Assembly: GCA_014378525.1 (NCBI GenBank)
Contig: JACMNL010000101.1
Location: 62,001-126,000 of the forward strand
DNA length: 64,000 bases
Direction: 5' to 3'
Source: Bacteriovorax sp.
GTDB lineage: Bacteria > Bdellovibrionota > Bacteriovoracia > Bacteriovoracales > Bacteriovoracaceae
The translations under genes were made by a program, and so were the position numbers. Shown in pieces: positions 47,367-58,372 of the stretch. Each line of letters starts with the position of its first letter. The stretch's first letter is position 1. The notes under the pieces are model-generated. The model saw nothing but the letters and a program-made list of their open reading frames with translations. It searched no databases and was not told the DNA's origin.

Positions 47367-48263
47367 ATGCTTAAACGTATTCTTTTAATGTTCGCAGTCT
47401 CGTTACTCATTTCAATTATGATCAGTATCATTTTCTCAATACTGGGAATCGGTTCATATATCGCTCAGGGTGGAATTCAATACGGCCCTCTCATGGCGTT
47501 TTGTCTTTTATGGGGAATGGGTGGTTCATTCATTTCACTTCTGCTTTCTAAAAAAATTGCCAAGTGGACCATGGGAGTTCAGATCGTCACTCTCGAAGGA
47601 CCGCATAGAGCAACTGTTGAAAAAGTTCACCGTCTGGCCAGAAGAGCAGGGATTACTGAAATGCCTGAAGTCGGTATCTATCAGTCACCTGAGGTTAATG
47701 CATTCGCCACGGGGAGATCAAAAAATTCTTCTATGGTTGCTGTCTCTACAGGACTTTTAAGTTTAATGGATGACACTGAAGTAGAAGGTGTACTCGCTCA
47801 CGAAGTCGCTCACATCGCCAATGGCGACATGGTGACGATGACTTTAGTTCAGGGTGTAGTGAATGCCTTCGTCATGTTCCTGTCGCGCGTGGTGGCCTTT
47901 GCGCTTGCTCAGGCAATGAAAGATAAGGATGATGACAGACCGGCAAATCCATGGATGATGATGGGTCTCACAATGTTGTTTGATATCGTATTCGGATTTT
48001 TAGCAGCACCAATAGTGGCTTGGTTTTCCCGCTACAGAGAGTTCCGTGCGGATAAAGGCGGAGCAGATCTTGCGGGTAAGGATAAAATGATTGCAGCTCT
48101 TGAATCACTTCAAAGAGCGTATCCACAATTATTACTTGAAGATAAATCACAGCAACCGAATCCGAACTTCAGGTCAATGCAGATTTCTTCTAAAGGTGCG
48201 TTCATGCAACTGTTCTCAACACATCCACCGCTTGAAGTGCGAATAGCTGCTTTAAAAAGATAG
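47367..48263 (+). CDS. htpX: HtpX membrane protease
   Basis: 298 residues, M48B metalloprotease of the inner membrane quality-control system. Two N-terminal membrane segments (LKRILLMFAVSLLISIMIS, and about 45-62), the zinc motif EVAHIANGD (HEVAH at about 145-149), two more segments, and third ligand region YREFRADKGGADLAG. Length equals E. coli HtpX (293). Its 3' end overlaps the convergent flavoprotein gene by 12 bases. Confidence 0.95.
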   Translation: MLKRILLMFAVSLLISIMISIIFSILGIGSYIAQGGIQYGPLMAFCLLWGMGGSFISLLLSKKIAKWTMGVQIVTLEGPHRATVEKVHRLARRAGITEMPEVGIYQSPEVNAFATGRSKNSSMVAVSTGLLSLMDDTEVEGVLAHEVAHIANGDMVTMTLVQGVVNAFVMFLSRVVAFALAQAMKDKDDDRPANPWMMMGLTMLFDIVFGFLAAPIVAWFSRYREFRADKGGADLAGKDKMIAALESLQRAYPQLLLEDKSQQPNPNFRSMQISSKGAFMQLFSTHPPLEVRIAALKR

Positions 48264-49211
48264 ATTTTTTGGAAGTCTCGAAATAGTTTTTTGGTAATCA
48301 TCAATTAATTCTCTCATGACTTCCGCCACACTCGGAACAGACTTGATCAGACTGACCACCTGTCCGATTTCCAACTCTCCCTGATCCAGCTCACCTTTAT
48401 GCATTCCGTTCATCGCACGGAATTTTCCCAGGTGTTCTGTGAGTTTTGTTTTTAATTCATCGCCGGTATAAGTCTCTTCTATTTTTTTTATTTCGTTTGC
48501 AAACTGGTTATTTAAAAGCCTGACTGGAACAGTACTTCTCATGGCCATCTGAGTAGAATGGGGAAGCGATTGTAGTGCTAAATTTTTAAAATTTTCATGT
48601 GCACTTGATTCTTTTGTCATGAGAAAACGCGTGCCCATTTGTACACCTGAAGCTCCGAGAGCTAAACATGCAGCGATCCCTGCACCAGTGGCAATTCCAC
48701 CAGCAGCAATCACCGGTATGTTAACTTTTGCACAGACCTGGGGAATAAGAGTCATCGTCGTAATTTCTTCGCGACCGTTATGTCCACCGGCCTCATAACC
48801 TTCGGCCACGATGGCATCAACACCCGCATCCATACATTTTACGGCAAGCTCCGGTGAAGAAGTTACGTGCACGACAACTGCACCCTTATTTTTTAAATAG
48901 GCAGTAAATTTTTTAGGAGTTCCTGCAGAAGTAAAAAATATTTTTACACCCAGATCCAGTGCACAGTTTATCTGTTCTTCAGCACCAGAATAAAGCAGCG
49001 GAACATTCACCCCAAAAGGTTTTGAAGTTAATGACTGAGCTTTTAAAATATGTTCTTTCAAAACATCCGGTTTCATCGAGCCAGCGCCGATAATTCCGAG
49101 TCCGCCGGCGCTTGAAACCGCGGCCGCAAGTTTTGAACCAGAGACCCAGATCATTCCACCCTGAACGATTGGATATTCAACATTAAAAAGTTTTGTAATT
49201 GGATTGCTCAT
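48252..49211 (-). CDS. FabK/nitronate-monooxygenase-type flavoprotein
   Basis: 319-residue TIM-barrel FMN protein. N-terminal PIVQGGMIWVSGSKLAAAVS, the motif EGYEAGGHNGREE (FabK and NMO proteins have EG.E.GGH.G here) and PVIAAGGIATGAG, then QMGTRFLMTKESSAHE. These fit enoyl-ACP reductase II (FabK) as well as nitronate monooxygenase. No fatty-acid genes are adjacent, so I keep the broad call. Convergent overlap of 12 bases with htpX. Confidence 0.8.
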   Translation of the reverse strand: MSNPITKLFNVEYPIVQGGMIWVSGSKLAAAVSSAGGLGIIGAGSMKPDVLKEHILKAQSLTSKPFGVNVPLLYSGAEEQINCALDLGVKIFFTSAGTPKKFTAYLKNKGAVVVHVTSSPELAVKCMDAGVDAIVAEGYEAGGHNGREEITTMTLIPQVCAKVNIPVIAAGGIATGAGIAACLALGASGVQMGTRFLMTKESSAHENFKNLALQSLPHSTQMAMRSTVPVRLLNNQFANEIKKIEETYTGDELKTKLTEHLGKFRAMNGMHKGELDQGELEIGQVVSLIKSVPSVAEVMRELIDDYQKTISRLPKNLSF

Positions 49212-49229: not shown

Positions 49230-49850
49230 TTACGCCTTCTTAGGAAAATATAATCTGACGATCATCCCGGAGTAATCGAGGCGGCGTGTCCATTCAACTT
49301 TTCCGCCGATACTCTGCATATTCTGCATCATAATTTCTTTGCCGATGCCATGAGGAATGATTGAAGAAACTTCCATGGAGATGTCTGGATTCACAGAATT
49401 TTTCCCGCTGCCGTTATCGACAATTTCATAGATACAATAATCTTTAGTTTCCAAAATTCTGACAATTAGTTTGGTCGCACTGGCCTTGACTGAATTATCT
49501 ATGGCATTCTCGATCACCTGAAATATCTGGCCGATATTAAATTCTGTAAAAAAATGAAGATTCGATTTAAAGTCACGGACCTCATTTTGAAAAGTGATAT
49601 GAAATAATAATTCTACAGTCTCTGTCAGTAGATCCATCTGGCGGACAAATTCTTCGGGAGAGTAAGTGAGAAGGGAATCTTCTTTTTCCTGTTTTAAATG
49701 CCTGTAAGCATCGTTAATGAGCTCACTGATGCGAACCAGATTCGTTCTGATGGGAATGAAGTCTTCCTCTCCATATTTCTTGGAAAGAAGAGCGGTATGT
49801 CCGGAAATAAGTGTGAGCTTATTTCGTATATCATGCAGGTATGTCAGCAT
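49230..49850 (-). CDS. Minimal histidine kinase
   Basis: 206 residues, no sensor or membrane domain. The dimerisation H-box comes at the very N-terminus (LHDIRNKLTLISGH, His6). The ATP-binding domain has N-box VIENAIDNSVKAS, G1 IVDNGSGKN and a late HGIGKEIM. Last gene of the leftward signalling operon, 90 bases after the HTH gene at 49941. The partner response regulator is not obvious, because the operon's own receiver lacks the acceptor Asp. Confidence 0.75.
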   Translation of the reverse strand: MLTYLHDIRNKLTLISGHTALLSKKYGEEDFIPIRTNLVRISELINDAYRHLKQEKEDSLLTYSPEEFVRQMDLLTETVELLFHITFQNEVRDFKSNLHFFTEFNIGQIFQVIENAIDNSVKASATKLIVRILETKDYCIYEIVDNGSGKNSVNPDISMEVSSIIPHGIGKEIMMQNMQSIGGKVEWTRRLDYSGMIVRLYFPKKA

Positions 49851-49940
49851 TTGTTAAAGTTCTCCTCAATCTAATCTACCTTTAAAATAGTATTCCTAAA
49901 AGAATGAGTTAAGGGGCGATTATATTGCCTCTAAATTAAT

Positions 49941-50852
49941 CTAGTGAAGTAAAGAAGGGGATGAAAGGAGAGTGAGTTTTGCCTTAAAAAATGGATTCAT
50001 ATCAAAAAGGTAACGATTAGAATTATCACCATCTAATACGGATGCAATTTTAGTCACTGGAGCGTTCTTACCATATTTGTACCAGGTAATACTTGATAAA
50101 ACCCCAAGTCTGGTCAGGCAGGCCTCTTCATTGGAAAATTCCGACATTCCTAAACCGAGTTCTTCGATGACATGTTTAATCGGAGTTGCATCGATCACTG
50201 CCTGACCGTTATGCATGCTGAAGATTTTGTAATCATAATTTTTATCAAACAGGTCAGTGCACTCTTCAAAAAAACATGACACAACTTCTTCAATGCTTTT
50301 TGGTGCGGTCAATTTATCGCGCAGGAAATTCCCTTTAACAACATGAGGAGTTCTGTGCCCCATGGCCAGGAATTCAGCATCAGTGAAGTTGTAGGTCTTT
50401 TTTAAATAAGTCGTGATATCAGAAATAAGAAAGATGTTTGCTTTCTGGTTTTCGCGGTTAAAAAATTCTTCAGTTAACTGAAACTTTCTGATGAGGTTGG
50501 TTTTAGCGCGAAGGCCCCTTACATTCTCAAGATAGTTAATGATGTTTCTAATAGGGAGAACTTCGCTATATGTAGCGTAAGTATATCTTTCAGGCACTGG
50601 AATATCATTTTCTTTAATACATAATGAGTTGAGCTTAAAATCCTGGGCCAGTAGGTCTTCAAAATGAAAGTTCATTTTTTCAGCGAATTCGAATACGCAG
50701 TTAAGTGGAAGCATTTTTACTGCTTGTCTGAATTTTAAATATTCTTTTAATGAAAGCCCTAATGAGTCCGCAAATTCCTGGTCGCTAAACAACAGAGAAT
50801 CCTTGATTCTCTCCATGTTTAACCAGAAAATCTGGTTCTCGTTAAGAAGCAT
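49941..50852 (-). CDS. HTH-containing putative regulator A
   Basis: 303 residues. The N-terminal segment SDQEFADSLGLSLKEYLKFR resembles an Xre/Cro-type helix-turn-helix, degenerate. The long C-terminal region (about 90-300) has no family I can name and includes SMHNGQAVIDATPIKHVIEE. The start overlaps the end of regulator B by 11 bases, so the two are translationally coupled and may act as a pair. Confidence 0.55.
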   Translation of the reverse strand: MLLNENQIFWLNMERIKDSLLFSDQEFADSLGLSLKEYLKFRQAVKMLPLNCVFEFAEKMNFHFEDLLAQDFKLNSLCIKENDIPVPERYTYATYSEVLPIRNIINYLENVRGLRAKTNLIRKFQLTEEFFNRENQKANIFLISDITTYLKKTYNFTDAEFLAMGHRTPHVVKGNFLRDKLTAPKSIEEVVSCFFEECTDLFDKNYDYKIFSMHNGQAVIDATPIKHVIEELGLGMSEFSNEEACLTRLGVLSSITWYKYGKNAPVTKIASVLDGDNSNRYLFDMNPFFKAKLTLLSSPSLLH

Positions 50853-51666
50853 ACGTCACTTGCCATCGCTGATCTTTTTTCACCTCATGGATGACAGGGT
50901 TTGAACCCTTGATCGTCTTAGCTGATTTCATCACATGGTAAGGGTAAAGAAGATTGTAGTTCATTACCAGGTCTGATTTTTCCAGTGATCTGATGAATGG
51001 AAGATTTTTCTTCTTCAAGTTAATGAAGTATTCACCTTTGTTGTCAGACATTTCATAGTCCAGAAATGTATCGCTATCTTCATTGATGACAGAAAAAATA
51101 TCTGCAGAAACTGCCAGGTCTTTCATCTGTCTGCCAAGAGCGTGTTCGAAGTTCAGGTCTAGAAGAGCTACAGACTTAGCGTTGATTTTGTTTTCTTCAA
51201 GGAATGAGAAAAATTTATCAGCAAATTCAGTAGTGATCGGGTGATTTAAAATGAAGAAAATTTCTTTGCCGATTTTGTTGTCTTTTAAAAATGTTTCAAA
51301 AGTTTTTGCGTGGTTTTTAACCAGGAAATCGTAAAGAGGTCTCAGTTTTCTTGAACTGAAGATATAATTACCTTTTTTGAAATCAAAATTTGGTGCCAGT
51401 GATGAACCTTCAGTTTTTAAAACCTGAAATGCATTTTCATTGAATTCTACACCGTAGTAAGTGAAGCAGTATGGATCCTGAATATTGAATGCTCTTAAAA
51501 ATTTAAACCACAATCCAAGCTCTGGGCTCATAGATCCAGCTTCAATCTTTGAGATTGTCCCTTGAGTTACACCGAGGATAGCAGAAAATTCAGTTTGCTG
51601 AAGACGGTGAAAGCGTCGAGTAGATTTAAATAAAATCGCTATGCTGTTGTTAATCTCTTTGCTCAT
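50842..51666 (-). CDS. Xre-family putative regulator B
   Basis: 274 residues from ATG 51666 (GAGAG 6 bases upstream), which gives a natural N-terminus MSKEINNS. A clear Xre HTH is at about 10-60: FHRLQQTEFSAILGVTQGT and SKIEAGSMSPELGLWFKFL. The rest (about 90-270) is a mixed alpha/beta domain of unknown family with LRPLYDFLVKNHAKTFETF. Overlaps the hydrolase gene by 17 bases and regulator A by 11. Confidence 0.65.
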   Translation of the reverse strand: MSKEINNSIAILFKSTRRFHRLQQTEFSAILGVTQGTISKIEAGSMSPELGLWFKFLRAFNIQDPYCFTYYGVEFNENAFQVLKTEGSSLAPNFDFKKGNYIFSSRKLRPLYDFLVKNHAKTFETFLKDNKIGKEIFFILNHPITTEFADKFFSFLEENKINAKSVALLDLNFEHALGRQMKDLAVSADIFSVINEDSDTFLDYEMSDNKGEYFINLKKKNLPFIRSLEKSDLVMNYNLLYPYHVMKSAKTIKGSNPVIHEVKKDQRWQVTYAS

Positions 51667-52519
51667 AAGTACTCTCGGGTTTAAGGCCAATATGGTAATT
51701 TGTTTTTTTATATTTCATGAAAACATTTTTACTGAAATCCGCCAGCAATTCATTAAATAATTCACCTGCTTCAATGTGTGCCGAGTGACCTGCTGGCATT
51801 TCGACCAACGTTAAATTCTCTGTGGTCTGAAATTCATTAAGAATATATTCATTATTAATCAGGCCGTCTGATGTTGCCAGTAAAAAGATTACAGGGCCTT
51901 GAAAAGATTTGATCAAGGCAACCTCATTTTCATTTACACCATTAATGATATCACTGAAAATTTCTGTGCGCAGAGACTTATCAGTTCTTAAATAGTCTAC
52001 TATTCCACGGGCCATATCTTCACCATTATAATTCATTTCTGCCATTAAAGTTTCGATCTCAATCAGAGTCGACTCATTTTGAACAAGCGCTTTCGAATTG
52101 GCATTTACTAAAAACGCATTGGGATCAAATGGATTTTTTAAAGGTGGTGTTCCAAAAAGAAAGAGACCGGAAGGAGTGTAATACCTAAGTAAATTGATTG
52201 CCACATGTCCGCCCATAGAGTGGCCTACAATGATAGTTTCATTCAATTCCAGCACCTGAATGAATTGATTCATTATATGAGCAAAGTTTTTTAGAGAGTA
52301 GTTGCCGTTTTTTGAGGAATCTCCATGACCGGGCAGATCAACACAAATCAATCGATAGTCTTTAAATAAATCCGAATTTATTTGTTTCGAAAAAGTTTCG
52401 AGACTGTGAGAATTGCCATGAATAAAAAGAAGAGTCTGAGGTTTATCAGGATTGATTTCAATAAAGTTTAATTTAGTCCCGTCAATTGAAAGGTTTTTCA
52501 TAAGATTATCCAGTAGCAT
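51650..52519 (-). CDS. Alpha/beta hydrolase
   Basis: 289 residues, cytoplasmic by lack of signal peptide. Fold markers: LLFIHGNSHSLETF (oxyanion), LICVDLPGHGDSS, nucleophile elbow IVGHSMGGHVAINLL (Ser in GHSMG), a probable acid in LATSDGLIN and catalytic His in MPAGHSAHIE. Closest in style to small alpha/beta-hydrolase-1 enzymes such as haloperoxidase-like or lactone/ester hydrolases. Placed between the HD-type gene and the HTH regulators, so it may process a signal molecule; inference. Start 52519 or 52501. Confidence 0.8.
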   Translation of the reverse strand: MLLDNLMKNLSIDGTKLNFIEINPDKPQTLLFIHGNSHSLETFSKQINSDLFKDYRLICVDLPGHGDSSKNGNYSLKNFAHIMNQFIQVLELNETIIVGHSMGGHVAINLLRYYTPSGLFLFGTPPLKNPFDPNAFLVNANSKALVQNESTLIEIETLMAEMNYNGEDMARGIVDYLRTDKSLRTEIFSDIINGVNENEVALIKSFQGPVIFLLATSDGLINNEYILNEFQTTENLTLVEMPAGHSAHIEAGELFNELLADFSKNVFMKYKKTNYHIGLKPESTYEQRD

Positions 52520-52573
52520 TAGTGCTTTCGGACATTATCGTTATGAGAAGAAACTTAGGAAAGGAAATTGTAA

Positions 52574-53917
52574 TTATTTCTTCTTTTTTAGAGTGCGCTC
52601 CAGTGCTTTTATGATGATCGCCACGTCCGGGCTCGGGTAACGTCTGAATAGTTCTTCCGTGACTGGTTTAGGTTCTCCGCCTGTTTCCTTAAACTTTATA
52701 AGCTCAAGAACAAAATGGTGGGAGATTATGAATATTTTCGATAGATCGGGTAGCTTTTCAATGGCATTTGAAAACCCTTTTCCATTAAAAGCACCATGGT
52801 GATGGCGGATGATTTCGTCGGCACCGACAGGGGCTTCAGGGTGGTTTTTTATTAATTGTGAAGCTTCATTGGCGTGATTGAACACCAGATCCCAATCGGC
52901 TTCAGAGAGCTGCGCTTTCTCCAGTTCTTCAAAAGAATTTATTTTAGAAAGGTCTTCGCGTTCAGTTAACATGATGTCGTGAAAAAATGCAGCAAAAGCA
53001 ATTTTTTCATTGGCCGACTGATCACCAAGTTTTAAATTCTTGATAACTTCGCATGCTACTACAGAAGTCATGTGACTTCTTTGATAGAGAGAACCAGTCT
53101 TTGAATTGATAACTTTATGCAGGAGCCCCGACATTTCAGGAGATTTCTCAAAATTCTTCACCATGTTTTCAATAATGGTATCTGTCAGCTGGATAGTTTC
53201 ACTGTTAAATCCCAGCGTGATAATTTCTTTGGTGGCGATGTCGTAAGACTCTCCCATAAGAAGAATTTTCTGTGTCTCATCCAGATTTGGAGAGTCCATT
53301 TTTTCAACCAAACGGTTGGATAAAAAGATTGCAAAGTTTTTATGGTGCTCTTTTGGAACGTAAAAAAATTCCAGCCCCTGTTCTCCATAACGAACAATAG
53401 ATTCTTTTGAGAAAGCATCTCCGTTGTGAATTCTTTTTACATATTGGTATTCGGTAGGCGATTTTTTAATACGGATAAAGACATCACAGTTGCTGGTGTC
53501 GAGGTTTAAAAAATATCTCACTGGTACAGCAACATAATCAGGGATGGCCTTTTTGGCCAGAACATCTTCGTTGATGCCCAGAACCTGTGCACTGGTTTGA
53601 ACTACTTTTTCCCAGTCTTTATCGCTAGGAATGCTGATCGTATGCTCTGTCGGTTTTTTTACATTTCCACCGAGAACAATGAGACTGATCTCAAGATGGT
53701 TTTCAATTAAATATTCATTGATCACGTTGGCCGATTCTTCACCTTCAACATTTGCATTGCAGATAATAAGATCGATGCTCGGAAGAATTGCGAGCAGGTT
53801 TGTGGCCTCTGTTGCATTTTTTCTATGGATAAGGTCGACACCTAAATACGTTGTAAGATTCACTGAAAGTAAATCGTTCATCGTTTTGTTGCTTTCAATA
53901 AGAATGACCTGGGCCAT
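52574..53917 (-). CDS. Pseudo-receiver / HD-GYP-like signalling protein
   Basis: 447 residues. The first about 115 form a response-regulator receiver fold in which the phospho-acceptor position is Asn (DLIICNANVEG) rather than Asp. A middle linker with beta structure follows, then an HD domain with FFHDIMLT (about 315) and HHHGAFNGKGF (about 370), where the GYP motif of HD-GYP c-di-GMP phosphodiesterases is replaced by GFS. Activity may therefore be lost or altered. First or second gene of the leftward signalling operon. Confidence 0.72.
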   Translation of the reverse strand: MAQVILIESNKTMNDLLSVNLTTYLGVDLIHRKNATEATNLLAILPSIDLIICNANVEGEESANVINEYLIENHLEISLIVLGGNVKKPTEHTISIPSDKDWEKVVQTSAQVLGINEDVLAKKAIPDYVAVPVRYFLNLDTSNCDVFIRIKKSPTEYQYVKRIHNGDAFSKESIVRYGEQGLEFFYVPKEHHKNFAIFLSNRLVEKMDSPNLDETQKILLMGESYDIATKEIITLGFNSETIQLTDTIIENMVKNFEKSPEMSGLLHKVINSKTGSLYQRSHMTSVVACEVIKNLKLGDQSANEKIAFAAFFHDIMLTEREDLSKINSFEELEKAQLSEADWDLVFNHANEASQLIKNHPEAPVGADEIIRHHHGAFNGKGFSNAIEKLPDLSKIFIISHHFVLELIKFKETGGEPKPVTEELFRRYPSPDVAIIIKALERTLKKKK

Positions 53918-53968
53918 GGAAAAAATCCTTGTGATAAAACTTTGGAAGTCTAATATAACTATTTTAGC

Positions 53969-54739
53969 TTAGATATCATGAAGTTCAAGTGTAGGTGATC
54001 TGGCGAGATCTGCCGCAAGTGTACTATTTGTCTCTCCAATGAGACGTGCTTTGGTCATGGTTCTTTTCTGTCCGAAGCCTTTGGCACTTTCAATTTTCCA
54101 TCCGGCCGCAATCATCGACTTCCTTACACTGACAGAAGCACTATAGGTGGACATATAAACTTCTTCAGTAGACATAAAACTCAAATCACTAAACCATTCA
54201 GTGGTCCAGAGTGCCGGATTTTTTTTGGGAGAAAAGGCGTCCTGAAAAATCGCTGTGAAAGGTGAAAAGTTATTTTGTTTAAAAGCGGATGGAATAGTTA
54301 TACGTCCGTCTCCAATCAAAACCATCACCGAAAGGGGAATGCCGGCATTTAAAATAAACGTGCAGGTATAAACATTTTCATTTTTTATGAATGTATATTC
54401 CGGGAAATTGTTTTTTACTGACCATAAAAAAAGGTCTTCATCCAGCTCCATGGAAACATAACTGAAAGTACGATCAGAAAGGTTTTCATGTTTATTTATT
54501 TCATCTGCAAATGCCTTGAGACCAACACCCAGACCGAAACCTACATCGAGAACACATATAATATTACCTGATGTGATTTGCTCGGGTATGTTGCATCCGT
54601 GTATGTAATTGTAGAGCGTTTCTTCATAGGCACCAGAAAGATTATGGCAGGCCTCAGCGAAATATTCCGACCAAAGTGTTTTAGTCTTGTCCTCGGTTTC
54701 AATAATTTTGTAAAGCCCAAGCTTTCCTTTGAATTCCAC
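53969..54739 (-). CDS. MnmD-like tRNA methyltransferase (MnmC N-terminal family)
   Basis: 256 residues. SAM motif VLDVGFGLGVGLKAF, acidic motif FQDAFSPKKNPALWTTEWF and the terminal GFGQKRTMTKA match the methyltransferase domain of MnmC (mnm5s2U34 formation in tRNA). Preceding ETLYNYIHG is also typical. As in other bacteria lacking the fused oxidase, it is a stand-alone enzyme. Divergent from the lipoprotein gene at 54785 and 51 bases before the pseudo-receiver gene. Confidence 0.85.
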   Translation of the reverse strand: MEFKGKLGLYKIIETEDKTKTLWSEYFAEACHNLSGAYEETLYNYIHGCNIPEQITSGNIICVLDVGFGLGVGLKAFADEINKHENLSDRTFSYVSMELDEDLFLWSVKNNFPEYTFIKNENVYTCTFILNAGIPLSVMVLIGDGRITIPSAFKQNNFSPFTAIFQDAFSPKKNPALWTTEWFSDLSFMSTEEVYMSTYSASVSVRKSMIAAGWKIESAKGFGQKRTMTKARLIGETNSTLAADLARSPTLELHDI

Positions 54740-54784
54740 TAAAACTTCCGTTAATTAATTGCGTTGAATACCGATACTTTCATT

Positions 54785-55489
54785 ATGAAAAGAATTTCGC
54801 GATTCGACCATTTTATTCTTATGACTTCGGCCTTACTTATTGTAAGCGGCTGTGGTGCAAATAAAAGCATCGAGTCCACGTCGTTTTCAACTTCTGCCAT
54901 CATGGTAGCAACACGTGACCTGACAACTGCAGAGCGTACGATCGCGACCCGTATCTGTTATGCTTATCAATCAAAAAATACAAGTTTTAAAACTCAGACA
55001 TATTACGGCGGAACTTTTAATTTCAACATGAATTATAAAGACTGTAGTAATGTAAAGTCGGCCTATTCAGTGGCCGGAATTCTTTCGACTTCAACTACAG
55101 ACACCAGAGCTTTGGTGTATTCAACTGATACGACTATGCAATTTAATAAAGCGGTACAAACGGCCCAGGCCGGTTACCTTTCACAGCTTTGCACTAAAAT
55201 CCAGAACAACCTTGTCATCAGTAATACAGTTGTCGACGGGAGCACGCGAGTGCAGCTGAGCTTTACTGCAACAGATATGGACTCATACACTCTCCAGTAT
55301 TTTTCACCGGTGAACAATGAAATGAAAATCCAGTCTGCTGAAACTTTCAAGGTCAGGACTCAATTTAATATTGTGGCAAACCAGATTTTAGGGATGGATG
55401 AAACATATGTCCGCCAGCAGATTTGTACAGGTGACGCCAATGCGTTTACTGAACTTAATCAGGTCTACGTAAACTACACACCAAAATAA
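54785..55489 (+). CDS. Lipoprotein, unknown
   Basis: 234 residues from ATG 54785 (a TTG at 54764 would only lengthen the cytoplasmic tail). Lipobox LLIVSGC makes Cys22 the lipid-attachment site. The mature protein is Thr/Ser-rich and beta-like (TRVQLSFTATDMDSYTLQY) with four further cysteines. Convergent with the gene at 55494, 4 bases apart. No domain recognised; anchored in the outer or inner membrane. Confidence 0.7.
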   Translation: MKRISRFDHFILMTSALLIVSGCGANKSIESTSFSTSAIMVATRDLTTAERTIATRICYAYQSKNTSFKTQTYYGGTFNFNMNYKDCSNVKSAYSVAGILSTSTTDTRALVYSTDTTMQFNKAVQTAQAGYLSQLCTKIQNNLVISNTVVDGSTRVQLSFTATDMDSYTLQYFSPVNNEMKIQSAETFKVRTQFNIVANQILGMDETYVRQQICTGDANAFTELNQVYVNYTPK

Positions 55490-55493
55490 ATTA

Positions 55494-57290
55494 TTATTTC
55501 TTCTTGGTAGGATCTTCCGGCTGAGTAGAATACTTCATGAAATCATTGTTGATGGTTTTAATGTCAAGATTCGTAGCACTTGTCTGTCCGCTTTTAAATG
55601 AAGGTGCGGAGAGTTTAGCGGTTTCAATTTGTTTATTTAAGGCCTTCGCATCATCACCACTCATGTCTTTTACTTCGCCAAATAATGAAGCTGTATTTCG
55701 CGAAACTTCCTTGGAATTAGATCCCTCAGGAGTAATTTGCAAATAAGATGAAACGATGTTGTCGAACTTAACCAGGTTTGAAAGATCTTTTGTTCTCGAA
55801 GACATTTCCTCTGAAATGGCCTTTATCTTTCCGATGTCAGTCAGTGATTGCGGGTCAATCTTGCCTTCAGTTGAAGATGTTTTTGCATTAATTTTTGCGG
55901 CCATTTCAGCTACGATAGCTTCTTTCTGGTTTTTGTAACGATCCATGATTTCTTGTTTTGTCTGATCGATCACACCTTTTTTTGTCATCGCATCGATGTC
56001 GGTCTGGGCGTATCCTTCCTGTTTTAGATAGTCCTTAACTTTATCAGGAGAAGAATCCAGTTCTTTTTCCAGAATATCCTGTTGAGCAAGCTGGCGCATT
56101 CCAAGCTCGGCAATGGCATTTTCATTGGCCTCTTTATTTGTGCTTAGAATTTTTTTACAAGCTTCTGCATTGGTGATTGTTCCAGTTGAACCATCAGCAT
56201 TGGCCTTATAACAGGCATCCATATCTGCCTTTGCCTGTGTCATCGGTTCTTTCATATTAGTTTCTATGTCTTTAGAAGACACTTCAAGAACAGCATCCGA
56301 TGAAGATTTTTGCGCATCCATTTGTTTTGTATTCTGGACAGCGTTTACAGGCCGGTCTTTTGCCAGGTCATCATAAAATTTGTTCTGGGCATCTGCCAGC
56401 ATAATATTTTTTCGTGCCGATGATACATAATCCATAATCAGGCATGAACGTTTTACAGTTTCATCCTGGGTAAAAGTATTGTTAGAGGCCGTGGCTTCAA
56501 TACAATGTTGTGGGACTGAAGTGATACAGCCTTTCCATTTTTTAGCGGCCAGACTATTGCTGTCTAAATCAATTCCTGCAAGCGATTTTATATTTGTATC
56601 TCTGTCAGTTTTCATCTTGCTGGAATCAATTTTACAACTTAGGGTACATCCAGTGGGCTCACAATTACATGTCGCCGGATCTGTATCGAGACAATAAGAG
56701 GTGAAAGCACTGATGATTGTTTTACCGAGTTCAGATTTATAAAGTTCGATAAACTTTCTATGATCTACAGCAATGATGATGTTCTTTTTAATATCGTCTT
56801 TATTCGGATCGAGGATTTCATCCAGTTTTTTTTCATAGTATTTACTTAAAGCGATAACACCCGGATCTTTTTCATAATCCATATCAACACTGACTTTTTT
56901 AGTAATGATATCAGGAGCAGTGGCCGCTTTAGGTGCTTTCGGATCCGCGCTGGCAGGAGCTCTTCCAGCAGCGGCAGAAGTCCCGGCCTTGGCATCGTCA
57001 GCATAGGCATTCATGACTTTCTTTTTCAGGTCATCATCTTTTTGAACATCTTTCCATAAACATGAAAGCACTGTTTGAGTTCTGTCGTTCTCTGATAGAT
57101 TGATTCCCGGGTTATCTTTTTTGCAGGTATCGTAAATTGTTTTTACGCCCTTGATATCCATTAACTTTTGAAGCGAACTATTAATGACAACGCCACCTTC
57201 AGTCTCTGATTTTTTAACAGTTTTATCTGCCGCATACAGCGAACCCGAAATAATAAGTGTAATGAGTAATAATGCTTTCATAAGCTCCAT
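55494..57290 (-). CDS. Large secreted helical protein, unknown
   Basis: 598 residues with a signal peptide (ALLLITLIISGSLYAA). The mature protein is Ala/Lys/Asp-rich and mostly helical, with probable coiled-coil (QIETAKLSAPSFKS, DRYKNQKEAIVAEMAAKIN) and an early cysteine-rich part (about 195-290: CLDTDPATCNCEPTGC, CKIDSSKMK). A low-complexity Ala/Pro linker lies at about 105-125. Probably structural or envelope-spanning; no family recognised. The start may instead be ATG 57281, which has GGAG close upstream. Confidence 0.7.
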   Translation of the reverse strand: MELMKALLLITLIISGSLYAADKTVKKSETEGGVVINSSLQKLMDIKGVKTIYDTCKKDNPGINLSENDRTQTVLSCLWKDVQKDDDLKKKVMNAYADDAKAGTSAAAGRAPASADPKAPKAATAPDIITKKVSVDMDYEKDPGVIALSKYYEKKLDEILDPNKDDIKKNIIIAVDHRKFIELYKSELGKTIISAFTSYCLDTDPATCNCEPTGCTLSCKIDSSKMKTDRDTNIKSLAGIDLDSNSLAAKKWKGCITSVPQHCIEATASNNTFTQDETVKRSCLIMDYVSSARKNIMLADAQNKFYDDLAKDRPVNAVQNTKQMDAQKSSSDAVLEVSSKDIETNMKEPMTQAKADMDACYKANADGSTGTITNAEACKKILSTNKEANENAIAELGMRQLAQQDILEKELDSSPDKVKDYLKQEGYAQTDIDAMTKKGVIDQTKQEIMDRYKNQKEAIVAEMAAKINAKTSSTEGKIDPQSLTDIGKIKAISEEMSSRTKDLSNLVKFDNIVSSYLQITPEGSNSKEVSRNTASLFGEVKDMSGDDAKALNKQIETAKLSAPSFKSGQTSATNLDIKTINNDFMKYSTQPEDPTKKK

Positions 57291-57382
57291 AGAAGTATTC
57301 TACCAAACCTATCGGTTATTCTTCTAAAAACTGTACTTTTGGGGGTTTTTCTGCGATTTGCTGCCAATGATTATTGGCTGTT

Positions 57383-58372
57383 TTAAGACTCTTTTTTGGC
57401 CTTCATAAAACCCAGCCCAAATACCGGGCTTTCCGAGAGTTTTTGGCGTCTCTTATTATACTCTTCAGTGGTTTTAACTGAAGCATGGCCCACGTCTTTG
57501 GAGATTTTGTAAAGGTCAACACCGGCATCCAGGGCCGATCCGATGTAACTCGCACGAGCTGAATGGGGAGAAATCCTGTGGTCGATTCCGGCCTTTTTAC
57601 ACCATGTTTTGATGATGTAATCGACAGACTTCGGGTTCAAAGGTTTAATGATGTTTTCCGGCTCAAGTGGATTTTTTGAAGGCCTGAAAATCCAGTCTTC
57701 AGGATGTACTTTCTCACCGAGACTTTCGATGTATGAAATATACTCGAGAATTATTTCTGCACACTGTGGATGCACGACTTTTGTAAGCTGTTTTCCACCT
57801 TTGGCGCGGACTTCGATCAGGTAGTGTGAGTCTCTGAGAAAGAAATTTTTTCTGCGTAAATTAATCAACTCTGCCTTACGTATTCCGGTCGTAAAAAGTG
57901 TGTAGATCACGGCCTTGTGAAGAAGTCCCGGACCTTTTAATACAGACACCAGTTCAAAAAGATTCGTTATCTGCTCGTCACTTAAATCATTTGTTGGTTG
58001 AATAACTTCCTGTCTCGGTCTTTTTATAGATGAGCAGGGATTGAACTGAATCATGTTTTTTTCAATGAGAAAATCGAAGAAGCTCGAGTTCGCTGCGAGT
58101 TTTCTGTTTATGGTTTTCGGAGCTAAATTATTATCGGTTAGCCAGTTTCTAAAGGCCACAACATGGACTCGCTCAATAGCTGTATACCCATTCACATCCT
58201 TGAAGTTTTCCTTAAGGAAATCAAAAAATTGAGTGATATCTGCCCTGTATGATTTACGGGTATGAGGCGACTCGAAGTTATTAAAAAACTCGTATTCGAG
58301 TTTATAATTAAACGATCCCTGATCCTGGTAAATCTTAAGAGAACTATCATTTTTTTTAGCGGGTACATTCAT
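57383..58372 (-). CDS. Tyrosine recombinase/integrase
   Basis: 329 residues. Core-binding domain with SPHTRKSYRADITQFFDFL, then the catalytic domain: Arg in FTTGIRKAELINL, Lys in RAKGGKQL, HSAR in SPHSARASYIGS, His in DVGHASV and Tyr in TTEEYNKRR. This set is complete. The arrangement resembles plasmid or chromosomal integrases more than XerC/D. Divergent from the receiver gene at 58446. No flanking repeats or phage genes are visible, so it could be housekeeping or a remnant of a mobile element. Confidence 0.87.
   Translation of the reverse strand: MNVPAKKNDSSLKIYQDQGSFNYKLEYEFFNNFESPHTRKSYRADITQFFDFLKENFKDVNGYTAIERVHVVAFRNWLTDNNLAPKTINRKLAANSSFFDFLIEKNMIQFNPCSSIKRPRQEVIQPTNDLSDEQITNLFELVSVLKGPGLLHKAVIYTLFTTGIRKAELINLRRKNFFLRDSHYLIEVRAKGGKQLTKVVHPQCAEIILEYISYIESLGEKVHPEDWIFRPSKNPLEPENIIKPLNPKSVDYIIKTWCKKAGIDHRISPHSARASYIGSALDAGVDLYKISKDVGHASVKTTEEYNKRRQKLSESPVFGLGFMKAKKES

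Follow-up and report, generated by a model that had tools for sequence, protein, structure and literature searches.

A regulator cassette of a Bacteriovorax genome resembling the receiving half of an acyl-signal system, and its predicted synthase partner across Bdellovibrionota

In LuxI/LuxR systems, the gene for an acyltransferase-type synthase lies beside the gene for a single ligand-domain transcription factor, often in convergent orientation, a short palindromic operator stands at the promoters, and some genomes carry the receptor only. We describe what looks like a system organized in the same way in Bdellovibrionota. It came to light in a 64,000-nucleotide stretch of DNA from Bacteriovorax sp. 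(contig JACMNL010000101.1, positions 62,001 to 126,000), referred to here as the window. Its source is a 3.6-Mb draft genome, 93% complete, whose nearest named relatives are Bacteriovorax sp. and Bacteriovoracaceae bacteria. The locus is a cassette encoding an alpha/beta hydrolase (abH), two helix-turn-helix (HTH) regulators (RegA and RegB), and a small histidine kinase (HK). Sequence comparisons support co-regulation of this cassette well. The window probably encodes the receiving side of an acyl-signal system found widely in the phylum. This system would be LuxI/LuxR-like in outline but with unrelated receptors, and it would turn on a two-component protein.

The likeness does not extend to the proteins. 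The receptors are XRE-type proteins with a V4R-like domain rather than LuxR-type proteins (HTH_LuxR/Autoind_bind, GerE HTH). The predicted synthase, a protein of ~250 amino acids (aa), does not match Autoind_synth: none of 46 family members matched PF00765 in a Pfam scan. We found no PF00765 protein in the Bacteriovorax genome either, though control genomes likewise gave no signal. The synthase has a methyltransferase or a ThiF-type enzyme as its companion, and lactone formation is not indicated. Having neither of the defining protein families, the system is not a member of LuxI/LuxR, although it appears to work like one. The enzyme shares distant full-length profile similarity with FeeM (PF21926) and the exosortase-linked acyltransferases (TIGR03694), but it forms a separate family, and the same genome has genuine FeeM genes besides. 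The V4R-like C-terminal segment of RegB relatives recalls XylR/DmpR/MopR-type sensors, in which V4R cysteines bind zinc. Here it is fused instead to an N-terminal XRE HTH, there is no sigma54 AAA+ domain, and several members lack the cysteines. As for the product, Roseovarius tolerans makes N-acyl amino acid methyl esters that have been called structural analogues of acyl-homoserine lactones (AHLs) and do not act in AHL signaling (PMC11580390). A methyl-capped product of our enzyme would resemble them, its chemistry being guessed from gene content. The open-access literature gave no account of this gene pair or of an autoinducer system belonging to the Bdellovibrio/Bacteriovorax phylum itself, though an earlier report elsewhere is possible; the papers found there treat signals of prey (e.g., PMC8461301).

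Clustering of the open reading frames (ORFs) around regA and regB recovered the ~250-aa protein, a methyltransferase, an alpha/beta hydrolase, and a kinase of ~205 aa as recurrent neighbors. By profile search, 85 of the 353 sampled genomes from the phylum have the ~250-aa protein, across several families and usually as one copy each. Single sequences gave weak matches to the FeeM-type and TIGR03694 families (0.0066 and 0.033). We then compared the enzyme profile, using hhalign, with FeeM-type N-acyl amino acid synthases gathered from the same phylum, which gave an E value of 3.2e-6 over 230 columns (probability 75%). Among the controls, four unrelated families scored E ≥ 0.4, the best of 25 column shuffles reached 0.07, and reversal gave 0.12. 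The alignment is collinear at ~10% identity, and the conserved SxxxIxPxxR-type segments of both families coincide. The enzyme probably has an acyltransferase (autoinducer-synthase-like) fold, as judged from these profiles. Two genuine FeeM-family (PF21926) genes share a contig with the Bacteriovorax synthase (C72:18017-18502 and C72:25547-26032, the latter within locus L190).

The synthase and RegB go together. In a set of 58 synthase copies at 57 loci, regB lies within 3 kb of the synthase in 56 copies and within 300 bp in 45. The two copies with no regB nearby are that of L178 and that of the Bacteriovorax genome, where the window holds the regulators. Synthase-regB pairs are convergent, tail to tail, in 44 of 55 cases, and 38 of these overlap or lie at most 64 bp apart. 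Across the 353 genomes, with RegB counted at E ≤ 1e-20, 78 have both RegB and the enzyme, 12 have RegB alone, 7 have the enzyme alone, and 256 have neither; the P values for these counts, including that for the tailoring enzymes below, retain genome kinship, though several families contribute. Distances between enzymes correlate with those between the neighboring RegB proteins (r = 0.71, reached in 0 of 2,000 permutations), with shared ancestry contributing to this value.

Other genes found within 3 kb of the 58 synthase copies are regA (36), the methyltransferase (33), the ThiF-type enzyme (20), and hydrolases of either the abH family (13) or a second family (20). The methyltransferase and the ThiF-type enzyme, the latter's identity confirmed by Pfam, exclude each other: 32 loci have only the former and 19 only the latter, with both at 1 and neither at 5 (Fisher P = 1e-9). 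At three loci, the enzyme has an acyl-CoA dehydrogenase gene as a neighbor, and a pyridoxal phosphate (PLP) enzyme stands beside ThiF; these neighbors fit acyl and amino-acid chemistry. At five loci outside the family of the window genome (L148, L157, L161, L166, and L118), genes for a cysteine-synthase-like PLP enzyme, a ThiF-like protein, the synthase, and RegB follow one another, with regA and the operator described below absent; the PLP and ThiF assignments were checked against Pfam at L148.

RegA matches HTH_3 of Pfam (4.6e-8, 33.4 bits against a cutoff of 23), as do all 16 of the 16 RegA relatives. Profile-profile alignment showed RegA and RegB to be homologous over their whole length (299 columns, E = 2.4e-39). 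The window RegB alone has no Pfam match, and the profile of its family matches XRE HTH structures. In 9 of 9 divergent RegB relatives, V4R (PF02830) is the top Pfam match at the C terminus (2e-5 to 0.06), the best score being 25 bits, below the cutoff of 31. An AlphaFold model of the window RegB, built on three alignment rows, has a mean pLDDT of 50; the HTH, at residues ~10 to 50, scores 77 to 89, and the rest is low. In relatives, regA and regB stand side by side at quite different chromosomal sites. We found no named relatives of regA in genome contigs, and viral contigs, plasmids, and phages (the last searched for regA) gave no matches. The Bacteriovorax genome has a second, solitary regB (C53:7842-8789, L086), 47% identical to the window copy, with no regA, synthase, or operator.

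A shared operator joins these genes. We first picked ATTC-N6-GAAT by eye from promoters and then scored all 4,352 dyads (256 half-sites × 17 spacers) against a background of other intergenic DNA. The 1.04 Mb of loci contain 77 copies; 47 of them fall within the 36 kb of sequence that lies upstream of cassette genes, where 1.1 are expected. ATTC-N6-GAAT ranks first of the 4,352 dyads (47 versus 9, P = 4e-37). Shifted forms of this box fill the ranks directly below, and the best dyad independent of it scores ~4e-4. Presence of the box follows RegA: it occurs at 25 of 35 loci with RegA versus 2 of 21 without (Fisher P = 6e-6). This pattern suggests RegA, the regulator with the better HTH, as the box-binding protein. 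The 64-kb window holds a single copy, located before HK, and that position is kept in relatives, 44 bp upstream in G012 (L033) and 41 bp in G003 (L035). The window copy sits between a TTAACT/TTGACG-like −35 element and an AT-rich −10 element, and in several synthase promoters, the box is ~20 bp ahead of the start codon. Both positions would suit a repressor.

Genome-wide, strict matches are few, and those inspected outside cassettes are mostly inside genes; the regulon looks mostly local. Since genome-wide counts are not above control, the regulon is not readable from the motif alone. One intergenic box in the Bacteriovorax genome (C72:2552-2567, L256) lies between genes for a response regulator (447 aa) and an oxidoreductase-like protein (470 aa) and possibly marks a second target. 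Another palindrome, TTCCGA-N12-TCGGAA, was considered as the operator and dropped for ATTC-N6-GAAT: it stands out in three promoters of the genus and less clearly in a fourth, and it is not phylum-wide. Its only perfect copy in the 3.6-Mb genome, TTCCGAACTACATATTGTTCGGAA (L116, 10230-10253), lies between the synthase and the methyltransferase, and the same spacing recurs in the synthase promoters of G003 (perfect), G001 (one mismatch), and G009 (weaker).

The operator also points to the output. The window HK matches HATPase_c (2.8e-6, 28.2 bits against a cutoff of 26.4) and has N, G1, and G2 boxes and a phospho-acceptor His at residue 6 (H-box); its HisKA score of 15.2 bits is under the cutoff, and it has no sensor domain. 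Nine copies of the box lie in other intergenic DNA. Six of these precede cassette-adjacent genes for small kinases (L089, L143, and L142) or receivers (L091, L098, and L168), and a seventh lies 164 bp ahead of a regA gene. Because these six boxes, like those of the window kinase and its counterparts, precede kinases or receivers, a two-component protein appears to be the regular output of the system. By position, the kinase or receiver gene is the box-controlled one. In G017 (L099, 9983-14054), regA-like genes occur with a small kinase gene that has a box 2 bp ahead of it, and no synthase was found; G017 is possibly a listener.

The Bacteriovorax genome has exactly one synthase copy, located outside the window (C72:36467-37207) and divergent from a methyltransferase gene. 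This locus is syntenic with C1 of G003, where regB, regA, and the methyltransferase and acyltransferase genes stand together. On this synteny, the Bacteriovorax genome holds the system split in two, with the regulators in the window and the synthase and methyltransferase on C72.

We propose the following mechanism. The enzyme would acylate a substrate that is an amine or resembles an amino acid, giving a diffusible N-acyl product. The methyltransferase or ThiF-type enzyme would cap or activate the carboxylate of this product. The V4R-like domains of RegB and/or RegA would bind the product, and RegA, bound to the box, would most likely repress until the ligand arrives. The hydrolase would turn the signal over. 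The output would be the small cytoplasmic histidine kinase, or a receiver protein in other species, feeding existing phosphorelays. We give an even chance to the broader proposition that this is a phylum-wide quorum-sensing class in which the signal, a capped acyl compound (methyl-capped or ThiF-processed), comes from a new family of acyltransferases, paired XRE-V4R receptors read it via the box, and a dedicated small histidine kinase or receiver is the output. If so, about a quarter of the sampled species (85/353) carry such a system, a new acyltransferase/receptor class outside LuxI/LuxR, and predatory bacteria have a cell-cell language of their own. A gene, an operator, and a reporter would then be at hand to ask whether these bacteria count one another.

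Several results weigh against an acyl-signal system. The synthase scores above no Pfam or NCBIfam cutoff and has nothing meaningful in the Protein Data Bank (PDB), a single-sequence AlphaFold model of it failed (pLDDT 36), and there is no member with a known product or ligand. The window RegB lacks the V4R cysteines present in some relatives. Across the genome, the box is no commoner than its control. The Bacteriovorax synthase promoter has no strict box and carries a related palindrome, TTCCGAAC-N8-GTTCGGAA. The two halves of the system are on different contigs of a draft assembly, and in G008, which has the regulators, no enzyme was found. A gene cluster with its own regulators could, moreover, equally yield a metabolite that is not a signal.

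That last point is the basis of the main alternative, a biosynthetic cluster whose metabolite, resembling a lipid, siderophore, or antibiotic, would be made for use and not as a signal, with RegA and RegB only sensing an intermediate or product to tune the pathway. The variable tailoring genes (methyltransferase, ThiF, PLP enzyme, and acyl-CoA dehydrogenase) do resemble a small cluster, and the boxes are chiefly ahead of the cluster's own genes. But no transporter or uptake gene recurs, and the sole invariant pair is one acyltransferase and one ligand-domain regulator. By position, the boxes also control genes for histidine kinases and receivers, for which a plain metabolite pathway has no need, and RegB occurs without the enzyme in 12 of 353 genomes, as LuxR solos do. 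We consider a metabolite cluster possible but rather unlikely.

An acyl signal may also exist in the phylum and yet not be what the window regulators sense. In this species, the cassette could be a listener or a remnant that responds to a foreign signal or another ligand and not to the product of the C72 synthase. The separation of synthase and regulators, together with the missing strict box at the synthase promoter, speaks for this, as does the lone RegB on C53. Close relatives offer similar cases: G008 retains abH-regA-regB-HK with no detectable synthase, and G003 has no regB at the site. Yet the genome keeps exactly one synthase with its methyltransferase, in a neighborhood shared with G003; three species retain the HK box, and the genes in the window are intact. 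We regard a listener or remnant as possible but rather unlikely, and the window regulators may answer the genome's own synthase.

The original prediction had placed six leftward genes in one signaling operon: those of the cassette plus genes for an HD protein and a tRNA methyltransferase (mnmC2-like). An ORF check found all six in place, and the gaps of 51, 54, −17, −11, and 90 bases between them hold provided that regA starts at ATG 51666 and not at TTG 51690. The same-strand run, however, extends to a seventh gene, fabK, 18 bp further. We searched every gene by tblastn against the neighborhoods of the HD orthologue in relatives. In 11 cassette-less relatives, HD and fabK are 12 to 45 bp apart with nothing between, and genes stand between them only in the Bacteriovorax genome, G012, G003, and G008, four close species. 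The insert is abH, regA, regB, and HK in the Bacteriovorax genome; G012 has those plus a methyltransferase gene and a gene for a ~250-aa protein, and G003 lacks regB. The expected conservation of gene order is thus retained in these four species, but in other relatives with an orthologue, HD adjoins fabK. Because HD and fabK are adjacent in relatives and the cassette is confined to four species, abH-regA-regB-HK is, on this comparison, an insertion into an older mnmC2-HD-fabK operon, itself conserved across the family. The GC content of abH, regA, and regB is 35 to 37.5%, and that of most neighbors is 39 to 44%.

A single six-gene signaling operon, with roles for the HD protein and the tRNA methyltransferase, is accordingly most improbable. 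The shared strand, the short gaps, and possible read-through from the upstream operon in four species would favor it. But the mnmC2-HD-fabK operon is cassette-free in most relatives, and elsewhere cassette genes occur without HD or mnmC2; synteny thus rules out mnmC2, HD, and fabK as members of the module. A single transcript is not assured either, because the 90-bp gap ahead of the kinase gene holds a separate operator for it, and transcription from the HK promoter may run on into fabK. What the comparative evidence backs, and widens, is the suggestion of a chemical signaling module in which a hydrolase stands beside paired regulators and a sensorless kinase. Finally, toxins with an acetyltransferase fold do occur with small DNA-binding antitoxins, but a toxin-antitoxin or defense pair with an XRE antitoxin can be dismissed with near certainty on gene size and partners, given regulators of ~300 aa with a ligand-type domain, an enzyme of ~250 aa, mostly convergent genes with no tight antitoxin-toxin operon, and conserved methyltransferase, ThiF, hydrolase, and kinase partners. 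The features of the locus are collected in Table 1.

Table 1. Cassette, operator, and flanking genes, in window coordinates
Feature	Position	Strand	Description
abH	51650..52519	-	Cassette member, an alpha/beta hydrolase of 289 aa; has GHSMG (nucleophile motif) and a C-terminal AGH His
regA	50842..51690	-	XRE/HTH_3 regulator, 282 aa; ~200-aa C-terminal domain homologous to that of RegB; likely start ATG 51666
regB	49941..50852	-	XRE-type regulator with divergent HTH, 303 aa; V4R-like C-terminal domain in relatives; partner gene of the predicted synthase phylum-wide
Operator box ATTCCTAAAAGAAT	49892..49905	.	Consensus ATTC-N6-GAAT; 42 bp upstream of HK start
HK	49230..49850	-	Sensorless histidine kinase, 206 aa; predicted box-controlled output
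HD protein	52574..53917	-	Pseudo-receiver/modified HD, 447 aa; flank, older operon, outside cassette
mnmC2-like	53969..54739	-	tRNA methyltransferase, 256 aa; flank, older operon, outside cassette
fabK-like	48252..49211	-	Enoyl-ACP reductase, 18 bp downstream of HK; flank, outside cassette

The MnmC2-like protein matches NF033855 with 107 bits, under the cutoff of 136. The HD protein has an Asn in the receiver acceptor region (IDLIICNANVEG), and Pfam detects no receiver domain in it. HD is present at residue 313, but HHHGAFNGKGF replaces the HD-GYP motif, with GYP changed to GKGF, so that it does not qualify as an HD-GYP phosphodiesterase. Its HD_5 and HD scores in Pfam are weak, that for HD_5 being under the cutoff, and no relatives were found in the PDB. 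This pseudo-receiver/HD family has 13 matches in the Bacteriovorax genome (the window copy and 12 more) and up to 25 in one relative, and it is far more abundant in the bacterial family of the window genome than in the rest of the sampled phylum. Beyond mnmC2, at 54764-58372 of the window, come a lipoprotein-like ORF, a gene for a coiled-coil-like protein of 598 aa, and a tyrosine recombinase gene, in an order conserved in the genus.

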